From IMG/VR virus record IMGVR_UViG_3300037586_000175, positions 1-27,645 of that record: 27,645 nucleotides of DNA; one strand, given 5' to 3'. Made by a program: the position numbers and the translations under genes. Shown here piece by piece: positions 2,453 through 19,967 of the stretch. The first letter of the stretch is position 1. Each line of letters opens with the position of its first letter. The notes beneath the pieces were generated by a model that saw only the letters and a program-made list of their open reading frames with translations, was not told the DNA's origin and made no database searches. This DNA is from a virus.

Positions 2453-3598
2453 ATGACGGGGGGTAGAGGATCAGGAAAGTCTTTTGCTGCAACAGTCTTT
2501 CTTACTTTACTTACTATGACTAAGGGGATTAGAATACTCTTTACAAGATACACAATGACATCAGCTCACTTGTCAATCATTCCTGAGTTCTTAGAAAAGA
2601 TAGGACTATTAGGATTTGATGATGTTTTTAATATCAATAAGGCAGAAGTATTAAACACAAGCAATCAGTCTGACATTCTATTTAGAGGTATCAAGACTTC
2701 AGCAGGAAATCAGACAGGGAACTTAAAGTCATTACAAGGAATAAGTTGTTGGGTATTAGATGAAGCTGAAGAACTTATTGATGAAGATATATTTGATACA
2801 ATAGATTTAAGTATTAGAGAGAAAGGTGTTCAGAATAGAATTATACTTATCTTGAATCCTGTTACTAAAGAACATTGGATATATAAAAGGTTCTTTGAGG
2901 ACAAAGGAGTTGAAGCAGGTTTTAATGGCTTTAAAGACAATGTATGCTATATCCATAGCACATACCTAGACAACAAAGATAATCTCTCTACGAGCTTCCT
3001 AGAGCGTATTAAGACTATAAAGGAAAGAAACTTTAAAAAGTATCAGCACAAAATTCTCGGTGGGTGGTTGGATAAGGCAGAAGGAGTAGTCTTTGAGAAT
3101 TGGAGTATAGGAGCTTTCAATCCTGATGGACTTCAGACTTCTTGTGGTCTTGATTTCGGGTTCTCAGTAGATCCTGATAGTTTAACTGAAGTTGCTATTG
3201 ATAAAAAGAAACAAAAGATATATCTTAAAGAACATATATATCGTAACGGACTTAAAAGCCACGAACTTGCTAAAATCATATTAGATAAAGTGGGTGATAA
3301 ACTTATAATCGCTGATAGCTCTGAGCCAAGACTTATTGCCGATCTAAGACATTTAGGAGTAAACGTTAAACCTGTAAAGAAAGGAACTATTGAAAGTGGT
3401 ATAACTCGTATGCAAGACTATGAACTTGTCATAACTCCTGAATCAACTAATATAGCTAAAGAAATGAACAATTATGTTTACGCAGATAAGGGTTCTAAAC
3501 TTTATGTGGATAATTACAATCACGCAATAGACGGAGTAAGATACAATGTTATTTATCACTTAGATAATCCAAATGCAGGACAATACTATGTACAATAA
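2453..3598 (+). CDS. terL: Terminase large subunit (start probably upstream, non-ATG)
   Basis: This is the packaging motor. Counting from the first ATG, Walker A GGRGSGKS is at residues 3-10, Walker B VLDEAEE at 101-107 and a coupling-type LNPVTK at 134-139. The nuclease fold has aspartates at D234 (LDFGF), D288 (ADSSEP) and D360 (HAIDGVRY). The first ATG lies only two residues before Walker A and would remove the beta-strand that family members have there. The frame stays open upstream to 2393 and encodes LNSKYNALFSSEARYFI, which looks like the expected terminase N-terminus, so translation probably begins at a non-ATG codon such as CTG 2402, ATA 2399 or a nearby near-cognate codon. The reported start is therefore the conservative one. 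The extended frame overlaps the small terminase stop. Confidence 0.93.
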   Translation: MTGGRGSGKSFAATVFLTLLTMTKGIRILFTRYTMTSAHLSIIPEFLEKIGLLGFDDVFNINKAEVLNTSNQSDILFRGIKTSAGNQTGNLKSLQGISCWVLDEAEELIDEDIFDTIDLSIREKGVQNRIILILNPVTKEHWIYKRFFEDKGVEAGFNGFKDNVCYIHSTYLDNKDNLSTSFLERIKTIKERNFKKYQHKILGGWLDKAEGVVFENWSIGAFNPDGLQTSCGLDFGFSVDPDSLTEVAIDKKKQKIYLKEHIYRNGLKSHELAKIILDKVGDKLIIADSSEPRLIADLRHLGVNVKPVKKGTIESGITRMQDYELVITPESTNIAKEMNNYVYADKGSKLYVDNYNHAIDGVRYNVIYHLDNPNAGQYYVQ

Positions 3599-3615: not shown

Positions 3616-3631
3616 TCTATTATATACTATG
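3616..3631 (+). promoter_or_regulatory. Late-promoter-like element, copy 2
   Basis: TCTATTATATACTATG, ending in the start codon of the tail chaperone gene at 3629. It is identical to copies 1 and 4 over 16 nt and lies in the 30-nt gap after the large terminase. This is the probable start of the tail transcription unit. Confidence 0.6.
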
Positions 3632-4270
3632 AAAGTCAATATCAAAAAGGAAGGGAAGAAAGAAACATTTAATTTAATTGACAGTTGGTCAGATGTAACC
3701 CTTGAAAAGTGGGCAGAGCTTATATCTTCAGAAGAAATAACAAAAAGTGAAGAAGCATTCGAAACCCTCACTTCTTTGTCAGACATACCAAGACAATTAG
3801 TATCACAACTTGCTTTAAGTGATGTAGTTGGTATTATGGCTAAAATATCAGAGTTACAAGAACAAGCAGATACAACTCTTAAAAACCTTATTGAGATTGA
3901 CGGTGTTGAGTACGGCTTTCATCCTGATTTATCAGATATTACATTAGGGGAGTTTGCCGATTTGGAAACTTTGATAAAAGATGGTATTGAAGATAACTTA
4001 CCTGAAATAATGGCTGTACTATATAGACCGATTACAGAACGAAAAGGGGATCATTATACAATACAAGCTTATGATGGCGCTATACGGCTTAGGTCAGAAG
4101 AAATGAAACAGATGAAAGCGGAAGATGTGCAAGGAGCTTTGGTTTTTTTTTGGCATTTCGTAAAGATACTATTGATAGTTATGCCATCATTTTTAATTCA
4201 AGCAACGGAGAAGATAGTGGAAGCAACGCAGACGAAGATTTCGCAAGTAAATGGTCGTGGTTCGGAGTAA
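3629..4270 (+). CDS. Tail assembly chaperone, short (zero-frame) form
   Basis: A 213-residue protein with no membrane segment in its first 170 residues. Features resembling tail assembly chaperones of Bacteroidota phages include SWSDVTLEKWAEL near the N-terminus, SDITLGEFADLETLI, and EIMAVLYRPITERKGDHYTIQAYDG in the middle. The decisive feature is near the 3' end: nine T at 4143-4151 read as GTT TTT TTT TGG, a perfect slippery heptamer. A -1 shift leads into an 83-residue open frame. Two overlapping products from one slippery site are the hallmark of lambda gpG/gpGT-type chaperones, which coat the tape measure during tail assembly. The zero-frame tail after the slip (WHFVKILLIVMPSFLI onward) is hydrophobic and atypical, in keeping with being read past the slip. 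The tape measure lies at the far end of the same module. Confidence 0.72.
   Translation: MKVNIKKEGKKETFNLIDSWSDVTLEKWAELISSEEITKSEEAFETLTSLSDIPRQLVSQLALSDVVGIMAKISELQEQADTTLKNLIEIDGVEYGFHPDLSDITLGEFADLETLIKDGIEDNLPEIMAVLYRPITERKGDHYTIQAYDGAIRLRSEEMKQMKAEDVQGALVFFWHFVKILLIVMPSFLIQATEKIVEATQTKISQVNGRGSE
4143..4151 (+). promoter_or_regulatory. Slippery T-run for -1 frameshifting
   Basis: Nine consecutive T. In the chaperone frame the codons are GTT (4142), TTT (4145), TTT (4148) and TGG (4151), so the heptamer T TTT TTT at 4144-4150 allows both tRNAs to re-pair after a one-base backward slip. Downstream, TGGCAT at 4151-4156 is complementary to ATGCCA at 4181-4186, a possible but weak stimulatory stem with poor spacing. 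Polymerase slippage on the T-run could give the same fusion. Confidence 0.7.
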
Positions 4271-4401
4271 TGTACAGATTGACAAATGGTGAGATAGTAA
4301 ATTTAGAAGCAATAACAAAACTGAACTTATACGAGTGTTTAACTTGGTTAAGTTATGAAACAGATTTAAACGATACTAAAATGGTAAATAGAAATGATTA
4401 A
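4150..4401 (+). CDS. Frameshift extension of tail assembly chaperone (G-T-type fusion)
   Basis: An 83-codon frame, offset by -1 from the chaperone frame, begins at the slippery T-run and ends at TAA 4399-4401. Its apparent start is only a TTG inside the slip region, so it is better read as the C-terminal part of a fusion: 174 residues of the chaperone plus 83 residues, about 257 in all. The extension is polar and acidic at first (SSNGEDSGSNADEDF) and then forms a folded-looking segment WFGVMYRLTNGEIVNLEAIT. In lambda the T domain binds the tail tube protein while the G domain binds the tape measure; the same division is inferred here. The next gene begins at 4394, overlapping the stop by 8 nt. 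Confidence 0.68.
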   Translation: MAFRKDTIDSYAIIFNSSNGEDSGSNADEDFASKWSWFGVMYRLTNGEIVNLEAITKLNLYECLTWLSYETDLNDTKMVNRND

Positions 4402-4900
4402 CAATAAGACATATCAGAACGTAATAGATGTAATTGCAGAGATAGGCAATAAACATCAGCAGATAGCAACAGTAACAACAGGAGATATATATGATGTAGA
4501 TCTTGAGAAGAATACCAAATATCCCTTAATGCACGTCAATCCAACGAGTGTTGAAGCAAATGAAAGTTCTTTATCTTTTAACTTTCAGATCTTTATAATG
4601 GATATGGTAAGTATAAAAAATGATTGGACTACTTCAACAGCAGTAAATAAAACTAATGAGAAGGAAGTCCTATCTGATTGCCTAAGTAACTCTATTGATA
4701 TAATAGGAATCCTTAGACATAGTAAATATCAATCACAAGCTATGGATGATATTAATGCACCTATCTATTTTAGTTCAGTAGGTCAGTCCTTAGAACCATT
4801 CACAGAAAGATTTGACAATGACGTAACGGGGTGGGTGTTCTCAATAACGGTAGAAGCAGAGAATGACTTTCAGACTTGCACAATACCTGTAAGTGCTTAG
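4394..4900 (+). CDS. Putative tail completion/terminator-like protein
   Basis: A 168-residue soluble protein with alternating beta-like stretches and no motif I can tie to an enzyme. Near the C-terminus LEPFTERFDNDVTGWVFSITVEAEN resembles the ending of small tail-completion or tail-terminator-type proteins of Bacteroidota phages, which have a beta-sheet core and are often placed near the chaperones and the gp10-like protein. It begins 8 nt before the frameshifted chaperone product ends, so it belongs to the same tail unit. The middle part (MDMVSIKNDWTTSTAVNKTNEKEVLSDC, positions about 4598-4680) is a helix-rich insert. Function is inferred from position and length; another minor tail protein is possible. 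Confidence 0.55.
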   Translation: MINNKTYQNVIDVIAEIGNKHQQIATVTTGDIYDVDLEKNTKYPLMHVNPTSVEANESSLSFNFQIFIMDMVSIKNDWTTSTAVNKTNEKEVLSDCLSNSIDIIGILRHSKYQSQAMDDINAPIYFSSVGQSLEPFTERFDNDVTGWVFSITVEAENDFQTCTIPVSA

Positions 4901-11145: not shown

Positions 11146-13053
11146 ATGGCAATAAAAGAAACAGTAGAGGTAGAAGTTAAATCTAATATAGGGGAAGTAT
11201 CAAAAGGAGCTTCAGAAGCAGCAGGGAATATTTCATTTATGGGGGTGTCTTTAAATAGTGTAAAGGCAGGTTTTGTGGCGGTAGGAAGAACTGCTAAAAC
11301 TATGTTCGGCTCAATTAAGGCAGGAATAATGAGTACAGGAATTGGTGCTTTATTAATAGCAGTTGTTGGTTTAGTAAGTTATTTTACAAAAACAAAGAGG
11401 GGTGCAGATATGCTTAAAAGAGCTATGGCAGGAGTGGGAGCTGTTGTTAATGTGATAGTTGATTTATTCTCTAAGGTAGGAGAAACAATGGTAAATGCTT
11501 TTAAAAATCCACAAAAGGCGTGGGATAATCTTACAAATACTTTATATAAGGGGGTGCAATTTATCAATAAACAAATTGTGAATAGATTTTCAGGGAGTTG
11601 GAAAGTCTTAACAGGTAACATTCAAAGTGGTATTTTAAAAATGCGTATTGCGTGGAATGAATGGATAGGGGACTCTGAAGAAGCTGAACAATTAACAGAA
11701 GAATTAGAAAAAGTTAAAGAAAAAGTAAGAGAAGGAACTGCTGAACTTAAAGCAGCAAATGAAGCAATAGCTGAGGTCTATACTGAAGTGATAGAAAAAA
11801 TCAAAGAGGTTACGGATGAAATGAAAAGAGAAGCAAAAGCAGCGTCGGCTTTAGAGGGTAGGTTGCAAAGACTGAGAGATATGGAGAACTCTTTTATGGT
11901 TCAAAAAGCAGCAACTAGACAAGAAATAGAAAGAGCAAGATTAGGAGCAGAAGATGAATCTAAAACAGCAGAAGAAAGATTAGAAAATCTCAAAAAAGCC
12001 TTAGAATTAGAAGCACAAACTACCGCACAAGAAATAGCATTAGCAAGAGAGAGGGTATCTGTTCAGCGACAACAAATGGCACTTTCTGAAAATATGGCAG
12101 AGGATGAAGAAAAGTTAGCTCAGTTAAAAGTAGCATTAATTGAAAAAGAAACTGCTTCTATTAAAATGAGAAGAAGGGTTGTTACTGAAGTAAATGCTTT
12201 TGAGAAAGAAATAGCAACAGCAAAAGCAAAAGCAGCTAAATTAGATGAAGAAGCTGCAAAATATAAGCTTAAAAGATTAGAAAATGAAACAAATGAAGAA
12301 TTAAAAATAAGAATTGACGCAGCAAAAGAGTTAGAAAAAATAAGATTAAAAGCAGAAGCTGATTTAGCAAAACTAACAGAAACATCTGCTGCTAAATTGT
12401 TGGCAATACAACAAGAAAACTCATTAGCTATAATAGAAGATGAAAAAGAAAAAGCATTTGCAACTTTAAAAATTCAAGAAGAAAAAGAGTTGGCAAGTGT
12501 TGAGAATACGGAACACGCAGAAGAACTTAAAGCAGCTATTGCAGAGAAATATGAAAGGAAAAGAGGTGAAATAACAAAAAAATATAGTAAAAAGAAGAAA
12601 AAGTGGGCTGAAATGTCTGCTGAAGCACAACTTGACATTATGAGTTCAACAGCAGGTAATATGATCAAGATATTAGGTGAGGAAACTGAAGCAGGGAAAG
12701 CTATGGCAGTTACACAAGCTACTATTGATACTTATAAAGGTGCTACGGCTGCTTATTCATCTATGGCAGGGATTCCTTATGTCGGTCCTATTCTTGGAGC
12801 TATTGCAGCAGGTGCGGCAGTTGCTTCAGGGTTAGCAAATGTAAAAGCGATACTATCAGCAGATTCAAGTGGTGGTGTTGATGATAAAACAGTAAAAACG
12901 ACAGCAAAAGCTCCTGCACCTGAAATGCTAAGTGGTAAATTTGAATTAGGTGGTGGTCAAGCTCCTGAACCATTGAAGGCATTTGTTGTAACAGACGAAA
13001 TGACAAACAGCCAAGATCAATTAGCAAATATAAGACGTAGAGCAACAGTTTAA
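11146..13053 (+). CDS. Tape measure protein
   Basis: The 635-residue protein has the three-part shape of a tape measure. Residues 60-110 hold a hydrophobic membrane-like segment (STGIGALLIAVVGLVSYF, then GVGAVVNVIVDLF). Residues about 175-500 are a long alanine/glutamate/lysine coiled coil. Residues 525-590 hold a second glycine/alanine-rich hydrophobic region (IPYVGPILGAIAAGAAVASG) typical of tape measure C-termini. Tape measures set tail length and are released into the host envelope on DNA entry. At about 1.5 angstrom per residue the whole chain would suit a tail near 95 nm, an estimate from the general rule, not a measurement. The chaperone at the other end of the module is its expected partner. 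It is the last gene of the tail unit. Confidence 0.88.
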   Translation: MAIKETVEVEVKSNIGEVSKGASEAAGNISFMGVSLNSVKAGFVAVGRTAKTMFGSIKAGIMSTGIGALLIAVVGLVSYFTKTKRGADMLKRAMAGVGAVVNVIVDLFSKVGETMVNAFKNPQKAWDNLTNTLYKGVQFINKQIVNRFSGSWKVLTGNIQSGILKMRIAWNEWIGDSEEAEQLTEELEKVKEKVREGTAELKAANEAIAEVYTEVIEKIKEVTDEMKREAKAASALEGRLQRLRDMENSFMVQKAATRQEIERARLGAEDESKTAEERLENLKKALELEAQTTAQEIALARERVSVQRQQMALSENMAEDEEKLAQLKVALIEKETASIKMRRRVVTEVNAFEKEIATAKAKAAKLDEEAAKYKLKRLENETNEELKIRIDAAKELEKIRLKAEADLAKLTETSAAKLLAIQQENSLAIIEDEKEKAFATLKIQEEKELASVENTEHAEELKAAIAEKYERKRGEITKKYSKKKKKWAEMSAEAQLDIMSSTAGNMIKILGEETEAGKAMAVTQATIDTYKGATAAYSSMAGIPYVGPILGAIAAGAAVASGLANVKAILSADSSGGVDDKTVKTTAKAPAPEMLSGKFELGGGQAPEPLKAFVVTDEMTNSQDQLANIRRRATV

Positions 13054-13076: not shown

Positions 13077-13092
13077 TCTATTATATATTATG
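13077..13092 (+). promoter_or_regulatory. Late-promoter-like element, copy 3
   Basis: TCTATTATATATTATG, ending in the start codon of the protease gene at 13090. It differs from copies 1, 2 and 4 by a single C-to-T. It lies in the 36-nt A/T-rich gap after the tape measure gene and probably begins the head transcription unit. Confidence 0.6.
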
Positions 13093-13701
13093 AAAAAGAA
13101 AACATCCATTATAGAATTAGTAATAAGTGAGGAAAACGAACCATTGACAATTGATGCAATTAGTTTAGTAACATCTCCTGCTATTGAAACTGACTTTGTT
13201 TATTTCTCAAAAGAAAAGAACAATTTAACTTTCGCAAAGGTAGATGAAGAAAAAAGAGAATTAATTTCTCCTGCTTTGATTCCTAACAAACAAATATTTA
13301 GATATGACCCTAATACTGATAGTGAGTATTATGTTTACTTTTCTAAAGACACAGTAAAACAAGCAGCATATAGTTATTTAAAACATAACAACCATCATAA
13401 AGCAACTGAGCAACACAATGAAAGAGTTTCAGGAGTTCTGACTGTTGAGAGTTGGATAAAAGAGGGAGATCAGGATAAGTCTAATTTGTACGGATTTAAT
13501 TTACCTTCAGGAACGTGGTTCGTGAAAATGAAGATAAACAATGATGAGCTTTGGAGTAAGATAAAATCAGGCGAATTGAAAGGTTTGTCAATTGAGGGGT
13601 TCTTTGTAAATAAGATGGAAAAGATGAGTGAGCAAAAGCCAACAGACGAAGAAATATTGAAAGCATTGAACGATATAATAACTAAAAATCAAACAACCTA
13701 A
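13090..13701 (+). CDS. XkdF-type prohead protease
   Basis: The 203-residue protein matches the XkdF-like phage serine protease family (Peptidase_S78_2). The conserved run is in order: ISPALIPNKQIFR (59-71), EYYVYFSKDTVKQAAYSYL (79-97), the histidine of EQHN (H109), VESWI (119-123), LPSGTWFVKMKINNDELW (138-155) and KGLSIEGFF (164-172). H109 and a serine, probably S121 or S167, are the likely catalytic residues; I cannot tell which serine acts. It would cut scaffold and capsid N-termini during head maturation. Position directly upstream of scaffold-like and capsid genes supports this. After residue 172 a short charged helix (EILKALNDIITKNQ) may hold it in the prohead. It starts at the six-copy element. 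Confidence 0.87.
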   Translation: MKKKTSIIELVISEENEPLTIDAISLVTSPAIETDFVYFSKEKNNLTFAKVDEEKRELISPALIPNKQIFRYDPNTDSEYYVYFSKDTVKQAAYSYLKHNNHHKATEQHNERVSGVLTVESWIKEGDQDKSNLYGFNLPSGTWFVKMKINNDELWSKIKSGELKGLSIEGFFVNKMEKMSEQKPTDEEILKALNDIITKNQTT

Positions 13702-13708
13702 AAAAAAA

Positions 13709-15358: not shown

Positions 15359-15937
15359 ATGGCTTGTACAGTAATAACAAAAGGACGTGGTTTAGATTGC
15401 TCTAGGTCATTAGGTGGTGTAAAAAACGTCTATTTCGGTGTATATGATGAATTTGATACACCAACAGATGGAACAGGGATAGTAATAGCTTCAAATCAAG
15501 TTACAGATATTCAAATGGGGACTAATGATCTTTATAAATACGCTTTGCCTAAGGGTACGGCAAGTGTTACAGAGACTATAAATGGCGATACAGCCGCAGG
15601 AACAATTTACTACACTCCTTCTATTACAATTCAATTAAACAAACTGACCAAGGAAGATCAGAACGAGTTGAAGGCATTATCTCAAAGTAAGCTTGTCGTT
15701 TTCGCTGAATTAAATCAAAGACTAGCTTCAGGTAATAATGTTATTCTTTGTCTAGGAGTTAAGAATGGTATGCTTCTTAATGCAGGTACTAACGCTTCAG
15801 GAGCTGCGTGGGGTGATAGAAACGGTTACGAATGGACACTTGACGGAATGGAGCAAGAGCCAATGAGTATGGTTGAAGATTATACTACCGCACCATTTGA
15901 TAATGGATTTACATATGGGTCAATCGTTACTTCATAA
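15359..15937 (+). CDS. Paralogous structural protein A (tail tube or decoration candidate)
   Basis: A 192-residue protein that opens TKGRGLDCSRSLGGVKNVYF at residues 7-26 and shares about half its residues with the next gene: GGVKNVY, LYKYALPK, YYTPSITIQLNKLTKEDQ, ELNQR, NVILCLG, NGYEW, FTYGSIVTS. The beta-strand pattern and location next to the capsid gene suit a major tail tube protein or a capsid-associated protein; I cannot choose between them from sequence. It lies between two hairpin terminators, so it may be made as a read-through product of the capsid transcript. No six-copy element precedes it, unlike its sister gene. Two cysteines (C3, C14) are shared with the paralogue. Confidence 0.65.
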   Translation: MACTVITKGRGLDCSRSLGGVKNVYFGVYDEFDTPTDGTGIVIASNQVTDIQMGTNDLYKYALPKGTASVTETINGDTAAGTIYYTPSITIQLNKLTKEDQNELKALSQSKLVVFAELNQRLASGNNVILCLGVKNGMLLNAGTNASGAAWGDRNGYEWTLDGMEQEPMSMVEDYTTAPFDNGFTYGSIVTS

Positions 15938-16048: not shown

Positions 16049-16618
16049 ATGGGAAGTTGTACGAATTTAAGTAAGGGGCGTGGAATTGATTGCAGTAGAA
16101 GCGCAGGAGGAGTCAAAAATGTGTATCTAGCTAATTTTGAGGAGATGTCAAGCATTACAGTAACTTCAAGTGAGGTGACTGCTTTTGTCTTAGGACATTA
16201 TAAGTTGTATAAATATGCCTTACCAAAAAGAGGTGGGAGCGTAGCTGAAGTATTAAATGCTGACGCAGGAACTTTAACAGCATTATATTACACACAAGGA
16301 CTGACGATTTATTTAGATAAACTAAGCAAAGAAGATCAGGATGAATTGAGTAGATTAGGAGAATCAAAGCTTATAGCATTTGTAGAATTAAACCAAAGAA
16401 ATGCAGCAGGTCATAATGTTATATTATGCTTAGGAATTGTAAATGGCCTTAGGTTAAATTCAGGGAATAATACATCAGGGGATAATTGGTCGGCAGCTAA
16501 CGGTTATGAGTGGATTCTAACAGGGCAAGAAAAAGAGCCAATGGCTATTTGTGCTGATTATACTACAACTCCTTTAGATAATGCAGGATTCACTTACGGC
16601 TCAATTGTTACTTCATAA
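16049..16618 (+). CDS. Paralogous structural protein B (tail tube or decoration candidate)
   Basis: A 189-residue sister of the preceding protein. It aligns along its whole length: SKGRGIDCSRSAGGVKNVYL, LYKYALPK, YYTQGLTIYLDKLSKEDQ, ELNQRNAAGHNVILCLG, NGYEWILTG, FTYGSIVTS. The main differences are a shorter loop near residue 32-40 and changed surface loops. Tandem duplication followed by divergence is the simplest origin. It has its own six-copy element and lies behind a strong terminator, so it is expressed independently of the capsid. Role as tail tube subunit, tube end piece or capsid decoration is open. If one copy is the tube, the other may form a specialised ring. Confidence 0.65.
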   Translation: MGSCTNLSKGRGIDCSRSAGGVKNVYLANFEEMSSITVTSSEVTAFVLGHYKLYKYALPKRGGSVAEVLNADAGTLTALYYTQGLTIYLDKLSKEDQDELSRLGESKLIAFVELNQRNAAGHNVILCLGIVNGLRLNSGNNTSGDNWSAANGYEWILTGQEKEPMAICADYTTTPLDNAGFTYGSIVTS

Positions 16619-18125: not shown

Positions 18126-19967
18126 ATGGAAAATATTTTATCAATCAATTTAGAATCATCAACATCTCCTATAATACAAGAGGTAAGAGGGCGTGACTAT
18201 ATTGAGTATGGCACAGATGAGTGGCGTAATTTATACCCTCAGTTCCTTATAGACTTGTATTACAATTCTAGTACACACGCTGCCATTATTAATGCCACAA
18301 GTGATATGATAGCAGGAACGGACATCATAGCTTTAGAAGATGACAACTTAGAAGCTTATGTTGGTCTTAAAAAGTTCCTAGCAAATGCTAATGGAAACGA
18401 AACTTTGCACGAAGTAATAAAGAAGATAGCTTTTGACTTTAAACTTCAGGGTGGTTATGCACTTAATATAATTTGGAGTCAGGACAGACAGAGTATAGCT
18501 GCTATTCATCACATTCCTGTTGAACGAGTTAGAGCAGGGAAACCAAATGAACTAGGAAAAGTAGATACTTATTTTGTAAGTGCTGATTGGTCAAATACAA
18601 GAGCTAACAAACCACAACCTGTTCCTGCTTTTAATGTGAATGATAGAAGCACACCAAGTCAAATACTATATACAGGTTCTTACAGTCCTAATATGGACGT
18701 ATATCATACTCCTGACTACAACTGTATGAATTGGGCTTTAATAGATCAGCAAATATCCATTTTTCACCTCAACAACATAAACAATTCATTCTCAGGCAGT
18801 TACGTGTTTTCCTTTAATAATGGCATACCTTCACGAGAGGAACGTCAGCAAGTAGAGAAAAGTTTAACAGAGAAATTTACTTCTGCTTCAAATGCAGGTA
18901 GATTCTTGCTTAGTTTTTCTGATAGTAGAGATAATTCTCCTGAAGTTACTCCTTTAAATACAGCAAATTTAGACAAACAATATATCGCACTCCAAGAACT
19001 CATATTGCAGAACGTCCTGACAGGACACAGATGCACGAGTCCTATGCTTGTTGGAATTAACTCAGAAAATGGATTTGGATCAAATGAACAAGAGTTGAAT
19101 AGTGCTTTTGAAATATATTTAAACACGGTGGTAAAGCCGTTTCAAAATAATATCTTAAAGACTTTAAGTAAAATCCTTACAGTAAATGGAATCAATTTAC
19201 CTTTAGAGTTTGTTCAGAGCAAACCGATAACGACTATGTTTACTGTTGAAGATATGAAGGCAGTAATGACGACTGAGGAGATTCGTAAAGAAATGGGATT
19301 ACCTGAACTAACAGAAGAAGTGGTTGAGGAAGAAAACAAAGAAACACTTAGTTCAGAAAAAACAGAGCTTGAAAGTTGGATTGAAGAATTTGGGGAAGAT
19401 ATGCCTGAAGATTGGGAAATGGTAGATGAAGAAATAGTAGATGGAGAACATAATGATTTTGATTTTGAAAAAGTTTTAAATGAAGAAGCTAATGAAAAAC
19501 TAGAACTAGCTTCAACAGTAAAAGCAACTCCTAATAAAAGAAGTGAACAAGATGGCGTAAATAAATCTTACAATGATTATTATAAGGTCAGGTATGTTTA
19601 TGCAACAGATAATTTCTTAACAAACAAATCAGGGACTAGCAGGAGTTTTTGCAAACAAATGGTTGCAGCTAATAAATTATATACTAAAGAGGATTTGGTT
19701 AATGCTAATAGTCAAAGGGTAAATAAGGGGTTTGGGCATAATGGTCGGTCATATAATATTTTTCTCTATAAGGGCGGACCTCAATGCCGACATTTTTTCT
19801 TAAGAAGAATTTACAAGACTTCTTTAAGAGCAGCTAAGAGTAAAATATCAAGTAGTCAATTAATCTCTTATACTAAAGCTAAGTCAGAAGGATTTACAGC
19901 AGAAAGAAATGACAAACTAGTAGCAATAGCACCACAAAGAATGAGGAATAACGGATATTACAATTAA
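18126..19967 (+). CDS. Portal protein with C-terminal Cys/His (MuF-like?) domain
   Basis: A 613-residue protein. Residues 1-390 have the portal layout: LYYNSSTHAAIINATSDMIAG, DFKLQGGYALNIIW, IHHIPVERVRAGK, then a helical stem (NLDKQYIALQELILQNVL), LVGINSENGFGSNEQELNSA, and VVKPFQNNILKTLSKIL. These form the ring through which DNA enters the head. Residues 395-465 are acidic linker. Residues 475-613 form an extra domain: KVRYVYATDNFLTNK, then SFCKQM with C509 and, 45 residues later, QCRH with C554 and H556. The FC...CRH layout is like MuF/head-morphogenesis domains, so this may be a fused portal and head-morphogenesis module. The portal gene is usually next to terL; here they are about 15 kb apart. 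Confidence 0.85.
   Translation: MENILSINLESSTSPIIQEVRGRDYIEYGTDEWRNLYPQFLIDLYYNSSTHAAIINATSDMIAGTDIIALEDDNLEAYVGLKKFLANANGNETLHEVIKKIAFDFKLQGGYALNIIWSQDRQSIAAIHHIPVERVRAGKPNELGKVDTYFVSADWSNTRANKPQPVPAFNVNDRSTPSQILYTGSYSPNMDVYHTPDYNCMNWALIDQQISIFHLNNINNSFSGSYVFSFNNGIPSREERQQVEKSLTEKFTSASNAGRFLLSFSDSRDNSPEVTPLNTANLDKQYIALQELILQNVLTGHRCTSPMLVGINSENGFGSNEQELNSAFEIYLNTVVKPFQNNILKTLSKILTVNGINLPLEFVQSKPITTMFTVEDMKAVMTTEEIRKEMGLPELTEEVVEEENKETLSSEKTELESWIEEFGEDMPEDWEMVDEEIVDGEHNDFDFEKVLNEEANEKLELASTVKATPNKRSEQDGVNKSYNDYYKVRYVYATDNFLTNKSGTSRSFCKQMVAANKLYTKEDLVNANSQRVNKGFGHNGRSYNIFLYKGGPQCRHFFLRRIYKTSLRAAKSKISSSQLISYTKAKSEGFTAERNDKLVAIAPQRMRNNGYYN

Follow-up and report, generated by a model that had tools for sequence, protein, structure and literature searches.

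The window analysed here spans a whole IMG/VR virus record of 27,645 bases, and its source is a marine virus of bacteria. On the plus strand, an open reading frame at 3629..4270 encodes a protein of 213 amino acid residues, of which residues 1-174 form the conserved part. Towards its end lies a run of nine thymines (T9) at 4143..4151, read in the zero frame as GTT TTT TTT TGG, just as the first-pass annotation had described it. Residue 174 is the second phenylalanine of the run, in agreement with the junction that had been placed after that residue. From 4150, a second frame displaced by -1 and without a start of its own stays open for 83 codons, up to a stop that ends at 4401. The stretch 4151..4270 is occupied by both frames, the tail of the short, gpG-like product and the beginning of the gpT-like extension. 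The next gene (4394..4900) begins with an ATG at 4394 and overlaps the end of the extension by 8 nt. Both the length of the open -1 frame and the start of a gene at its end had been claimed before and are confirmed. All of these features are on the plus strand.

The pattern of a slippery heptamer, X_XXY_YYZ, is present in frame within the run as T_TTT_TTT (4144..4150, plus strand). A T9 by itself is unremarkable in the window, where two are found on both strands together, compared with a mean of 6.4 in dinucleotide shuffles; what exceeds chance is its conservation. The run at 4143-4151 is the sole T9 on the plus strand. The window's only other nine-base homopolymer is an A9 at 13700-13708, at the end of the gene 13090-13701.

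The gene directly upstream of the T9 gene encodes the large subunit of terminase (2453..3598, plus strand; Pfam Terminase_3, 9.1e-32). Of the 268 relatives whose upstream sequence is long enough, 226 also have a terminase homologue in the preceding 1,500 nt, among the matches listed. The tape measure protein (PHROG tail length tape measure, 9.4e-14) is encoded on the plus strand at 11146..13053. Its gene lies downstream of the T9 gene, from which some 7 kb and six open reading frames separate it. The location at the opposite end of the module from the tape measure, which the first-pass annotation had proposed, is borne out by these positions. The tape measure gene is followed by an XkdF-like protease and then by a weak major-head match, and the portal lies at 18126 (match 3.6e-69).

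Two further observations concern the same neighbourhood. Just after the capsid-like gene, 15359-15937 and 16049-16618 encode related proteins in tandem, both assigned to phrog_19091, which are candidates for duplicate tail-tube proteins. At 930-2069, a ParB-like N-terminal region is fused to an N6/N4 DNA methylase, with the small terminase just downstream.

Relatives of the locus were collected by scans with the zero-frame protein, the fusion alignment, the extension alone, the N-terminal part alone and the protein of a Nonlabens phage. The best 80 of 122 matches were used for the zero-frame protein and the best 80 for each of three other scans; one genome contig, two phage records and two plasmid records were added. 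At least 380 loci were gathered in this way, including the window. They are redundant, and the survey is a sample. Six of the 380 were set aside with an extension that was not recognisable, and both parts of the protein were seen in the other 374, among the matches listed.

Among these two-part loci, 371 of 374 listed matches carry T9 or T10 at the junction, and in all 371 of those with an intact run the second part is in the -1 frame. The three exceptions are L356, in which the junction is deleted, and L378 and L379, which have T8 and T7 with broken frames; all three were excluded from further counts for their disrupted junctions. L378 (CP045836.1) and L379 (NZ_CP040811.1) are circular "plasmids" of 66-67 kb from Lysinibacillus and Escherichia fergusonii that share near-identical stretches bearing a phage-type chaperone pair. 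The appearance is that of a single phage that either resides in these two unrelated isolates or contaminates them. In prokaryote genomes there was only one match, L084, a contig binned into a Pseudooceanicola MAG; it carries the gene pair at 54% identity and is probably a misbinned virus. The phages collection gave no match when queried with the extension of a distant relative.

The 371 loci collapse to 277 distinct fusion proteins among the matches listed. The run is a T9 in the main register in 254 of them and a T10 in the same phase in 14; in eight it is a T9 read as three phenylalanine codons, and in one a T10 in that phase. A long homopolymer of T9 or T10 is accordingly found at the frame transition in all 277 distinct relatives listed, each with an in-frame T_TTT_TTT, and none of these proteins has a run of fewer than nine Ts, another heptamer or an in-frame fusion. 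Where the -1 extension is complete (268 of the 277 distinct relatives listed), its length is 79-93 residues. Its end overlaps the start of the next gene in 249 of 268 relatives, again among the matches listed. A DNA search that was agnostic to run length, using six Ts followed by any one to four bases in conserved context, returned at least 80 loci. Ten of the 80 were set aside as other sequence, two of these without an upstream translation shown; the remaining 70 were the same gene, and all 70 had T9 or T10, among the matches listed.

Selection on the two frames was estimated from 464 pairs drawn from 67 sequences. The ratio pN/pS is 0.31 upstream of the overlap. Within roughly the first 60 nt of overlap it is 0.61 for either frame, and past the overlap it is 0.30 for the -1 frame. 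By this last value, the -1 frame evolves as protein. The first-pass annotation had suggested aligning homologues to see whether the slippery site and the -1 frame are conserved. That check was run and came out strongly in favour: a 79-93-residue part is kept in 268 of 277 relatives and is under purifying selection, and the junction invariably carries the T run. The comparative evidence indicates that the -1 frameshift is real and that T9 is a conserved switch.

Constraint on the run can also be followed codon by codon. A tree was built from 263 proteins with the junction residues omitted; 14 of the 277 were left out for length or an incomplete extension. Both phenylalanines of the run are encoded by TTT in 263 of 263 cases each and never by TTC, so that in the main register the third bases of the run codons are invariant. 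A conserved phenylalanine elsewhere in the protein uses TTT 169 times and TTC 83 times, and its codon changes 44 times over the tree. The same tree requires no fewer than 15 shifts in register or run length (8, 6 and 1 by type), and the run stays at nine or more Ts throughout. All 197 chaperone genes have a run of at least nine Ts; a single such run was observed across 979 other genes of the relatives, compared with 7.1 expected from synonymous shuffles. Runs of at least nine As are likewise depleted in the 979 non-chaperone genes (22 observed, 80.3 expected), and in these genes the depletion of coding-strand T and A runs follows length.

Curated sequence families do not name a function for the gene. 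Pfam and NCBIfam gave nothing credible, the best PHROG match is of "unknown function" and none carries a chaperone annotation, and a sequence search of the PDB gave no match. The zero-frame protein was modelled with AlphaFold2 at a mean pLDDT of 80.8. Compared with BFVD, this model matches the Nonlabens protein as well as phage proteins that are uncharacterised. Its fold matches to entries annotated as tail assembly chaperone are weaker (E 6.6e-3 with probability 0.98, and E 0.19 with probability 0.99). A fold search of the PDB listed no solved structure, a result in which a missing row excludes nothing. Modelling of the -1 part gave a poor result, with a mean pLDDT of 58.9.

The closest model for such an arrangement is the G/GT tail assembly chaperone. 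The lambda slippery site is G_GGA_AAG, and a G/GT gene usually lies directly upstream of the tape measure gene, although this position is not strictly defining. The short form of such a chaperone binds the tape measure protein, the extension binds the tail-tube protein, and neither enters the virion. In the window, the two-product gene is not in this usual position. Like the window gene, lambda gpG/gpGT yields a short product and a -1 fusion from one gene, with a conserved extension part and apparently no conserved stem-loop stimulator (PMC5009743, in the sections drawn on here). The window differs from lambda in that its site is a T9/T10 homopolymer, that the gene adjoins terminase and lies 7 kb from the tape measure gene, and that sequence similarity between the two is not detectable. 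Two overlapping frames, the second in -1, and a conserved slippery site at their overlap are the features shared with G/GT genes; both are found here, and in the relatives, with T9/T10 in 277 of 277 among the matches listed.

A homologous pair of genes occurs in the Nonlabens (Persicivirga) phages P12024S and P12024L (JQ823122, JQ823123; genes 38/39 and 40/41). There, too, the pair follows the large terminase, a T9 lies at the same place, read as CTT TTT TTT TAT, and the -1 extension contains a KW[GS]WY motif. The proteins are only ~30% identical to the window protein, and the two parts are annotated as separate hypothetical proteins, with no frameshift given in the record tables. Relatives range down to 25-34% identity with the P12024 protein.

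A weak fold match of similar size was found in a flavobacterial phage, Flavobacterium phage 6H (AGN89393), although its TM-score is just 0.34-0.36. No T9 was found when this phage was examined for a comparable site. At ~9.9-10.9 kb on the minus strand of the phage 6H record, an unannotated open frame follows AGN89393, possibly a further recoded tail protein, one that lacks a T9.

Taken with the fold matches, the two-product layout suggests that the product is very probably a tail assembly chaperone, as the first-pass annotation had proposed. The architecture and the weak fold resemblance speak for that proposal, while a match to a sequence family annotated as chaperone did not materialise. There is good reason to expect, from the sequence pattern and the parallel with lambda, that this two-product gene works like the G/GT tail assembly chaperone. 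Because the tape measure gene does not directly follow this gene, the claim is worded as working like G/GT, and membership of that group is put lower.

In the proposed mechanism, most expression would end at 4270 and give the 213-residue short form. A minority would shift one frame back at the T9 and leave the zero frame after Phe174, as the pattern of conservation suggests. The shifted reading would run on to 4401, and the fusion so made would have 257 residues, the C-terminal 83 of them from the extension. By analogy with known chaperones, the shared part would coat the tape measure protein, the extension would recruit the tail-tube protein, and the frequency of slipping would set the ratio of short form to fusion. 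On this view, the T9 switch probably yields a tail-building helper protein in a short and a long form.

Three other accounts of the locus can be weighed against this reading. The -1 frame could be a separate gene with its own start, the T9 being incidental. The extension is indeed annotated as a small reading frame of its own in P12024S/L and has its own PHROG, phrog_38404. However, an independent start was rejected, since among the matches listed 255 of 262 relatives have no -1-frame ATG in the stretch from the run to the conserved W motif; the first codon of the extension is start-like in only 63 of 262, conservation begins right at the run, and the run is invariant. A separate gene is therefore very improbable. 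Still more remote is an assembly error or a decayed gene. Homopolymers are error-prone, and the two plasmid records have T8 and T7 with broken frames, but the same run and frame relation recurs in 277 distinct proteins, including those of two cultured phages. Finally, the recoding could be real and the product some other structural protein made in two forms. The proximity to terminase instead of the tape measure gene and the lack of a sequence-level tie to known chaperones would suit this account, which is unlikely given the G/GT-like architecture and size, the weak fold matches to annotated chaperones and the ORF list, where nothing next to the tape measure gene stood out as a second recoded gene.

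The chaperone reading leaves the question of how the slip is promoted. Stem-loop stimulators, which are common but not obligatory at ribosomal frameshift sites, were not found upstream or downstream of the site. In 114 diverse sequences, the mean folding z-score is -0.05 over the 60 nt following the run and -0.21 in a window starting 15 nt on, and no consensus structure was found at the site in 85 sequences. The first-pass annotation had pointed to TGGCAT (4151-4156) and its complement ATGCCA, with a spacing it called unusual for a stimulator. The complement does exist in the window; as a conserved stimulator it was rejected, such a pair being found within 55 nt in only 13 of 276 relatives among the matches listed, compared with 0-7 of 273-277 at control offsets.

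Shine-Dalgarno sites are another of the usual frameshift stimulators in bacteria. In the window, a Shine-Dalgarno-like site is found at one of 36 gene starts, compared with 0.7 in shuffles, and the 18 nt upstream of gene starts are 54% A. Scarce Shine-Dalgarno sites together with A-rich upstream regions are consistent with a Bacteroidetes host, and so is the kinship with the Nonlabens phages. The homopolymer alone seems to be enough for slippage, since no stem-loop was found and the window's genes lack Shine-Dalgarno sites.

The slip itself may be made by the ribosome or by RNA polymerase, a possibility that the first-pass annotation had already raised. In the latter case a U would be added on the T9, and the longer mRNA would be translated normally. 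Shigella mxiE also carries a T9. Transcriptional slippage is reported for mxiE and for spa13, which differ from the window gene in not being phage tail genes. Slippage in spa13 leads to a trans-frame product whose extension runs into the following gene, as in the window (for spa13, in the sections of PMC5009743 drawn on here). That the fusion arises mainly by polymerase slippage is a serious possibility, somewhat short of an even chance. The run has nine or ten Ts in all 277 distinct relatives listed, never seven or eight, and this length is near that of the RNA-DNA hybrid, which is 9-10 bp (PMC5009743, same sections). The run is always T, on which E. coli RNA polymerase slips more than on A (PMC6260861, in the part drawn on here). 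No downstream stem-loop signal or consensus structure is present, runs of at least nine Ts are depleted in other genes, and eight relatives in phase 0 have arginine before the phenylalanine pair. Against a main role for polymerase, any T9 contains an in-frame T_TTT_TTT, insertions by E. coli polymerase amount at the RNA level to merely 0.75% at T7 (the same part of PMC6260861), and the phage G/GT cases in the sections of the review PMC5009743 drawn on here are ribosomal.

The two Ts outside T_TTT_TTT can also be explained by the encoded residues. The codon preceding the phenylalanine pair specifies Val, Leu, Ile or Phe, all with T as second base, and the codon following it mostly specifies Tyr or Trp, with T as first base. 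The 41 hydrophobic columns used for comparison include the run's own; 7 of them are equally constrained, keeping to NTN codons throughout. Several aromatic columns retain a first-base T. The phase-0 relatives have arginine (AGG or CGG) before the phenylalanine pair in eight of eight cases. Arginine occurs there only in relatives whose run has moved downstream, a suggestive pattern, as if that codon had been freed by the move. The invariance of nine Ts through moves among three registers was considered as direct evidence for polymerase and dropped as decisive, because every T9 holds an in-frame T_TTT_TTT in any phase and because conserved hydrophobic and aromatic codons account for the outer Ts as well.

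A purely ribosomal -1 frameshift on U_UUU_UUU, as in lambda gpG/gpGT and with no share for polymerase, may be correct, at somewhat less than an even chance. It is consistent with the heptamer, in frame in every distinct relative listed, and with the invariant third bases of the run codons. It sits less well with the fact that other slippery heptamers are never used among the relatives listed, and the data for E. coli polymerase make some slippage likely at such run lengths (PMC6260861, same part). In those data, reporter rescue reached 5% and 10% for T7 and T8, yet insertions in the RNA at T7 were 0.75%; for this reason, both machines probably contribute at the T9. The ribosome, slipping on U_UUU_UUU, is slightly favoured as the larger source of the fusion and is put ahead of polymerase because the phage G/GT cases in the review (PMC5009743, sections drawn on here) are ribosomal.

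No report of the T9 site was found in listings from an open-access library, and PMC8776804 and PMC7077304 do not mention frameshift, chaperone or slippage. What sets this variant apart is that the T9/T10 is invariant, that the gene lies far from the tape measure and that slippage may be transcriptional. An anonymous gene pair, found in a widespread group of aquatic phages, can now be given a likely function; in the group's sole cultured genome pair, the two genes are listed as unlinked and hypothetical. With the invariant T9, it can also be tested cleanly whether polymerase, not the ribosome, is able to set the classic G/GT ratio in a phage with genes that lack Shine-Dalgarno sites. There is a fair chance, somewhat short of even, that a large phage clade without Shine-Dalgarno translation, with hosts that are probably all Bacteroidetes, sets the ratio of its chaperone forms by polymerase slippage on the T9 and not by the ribosome. 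If so, tail assembly would be tuned at the level of transcription.
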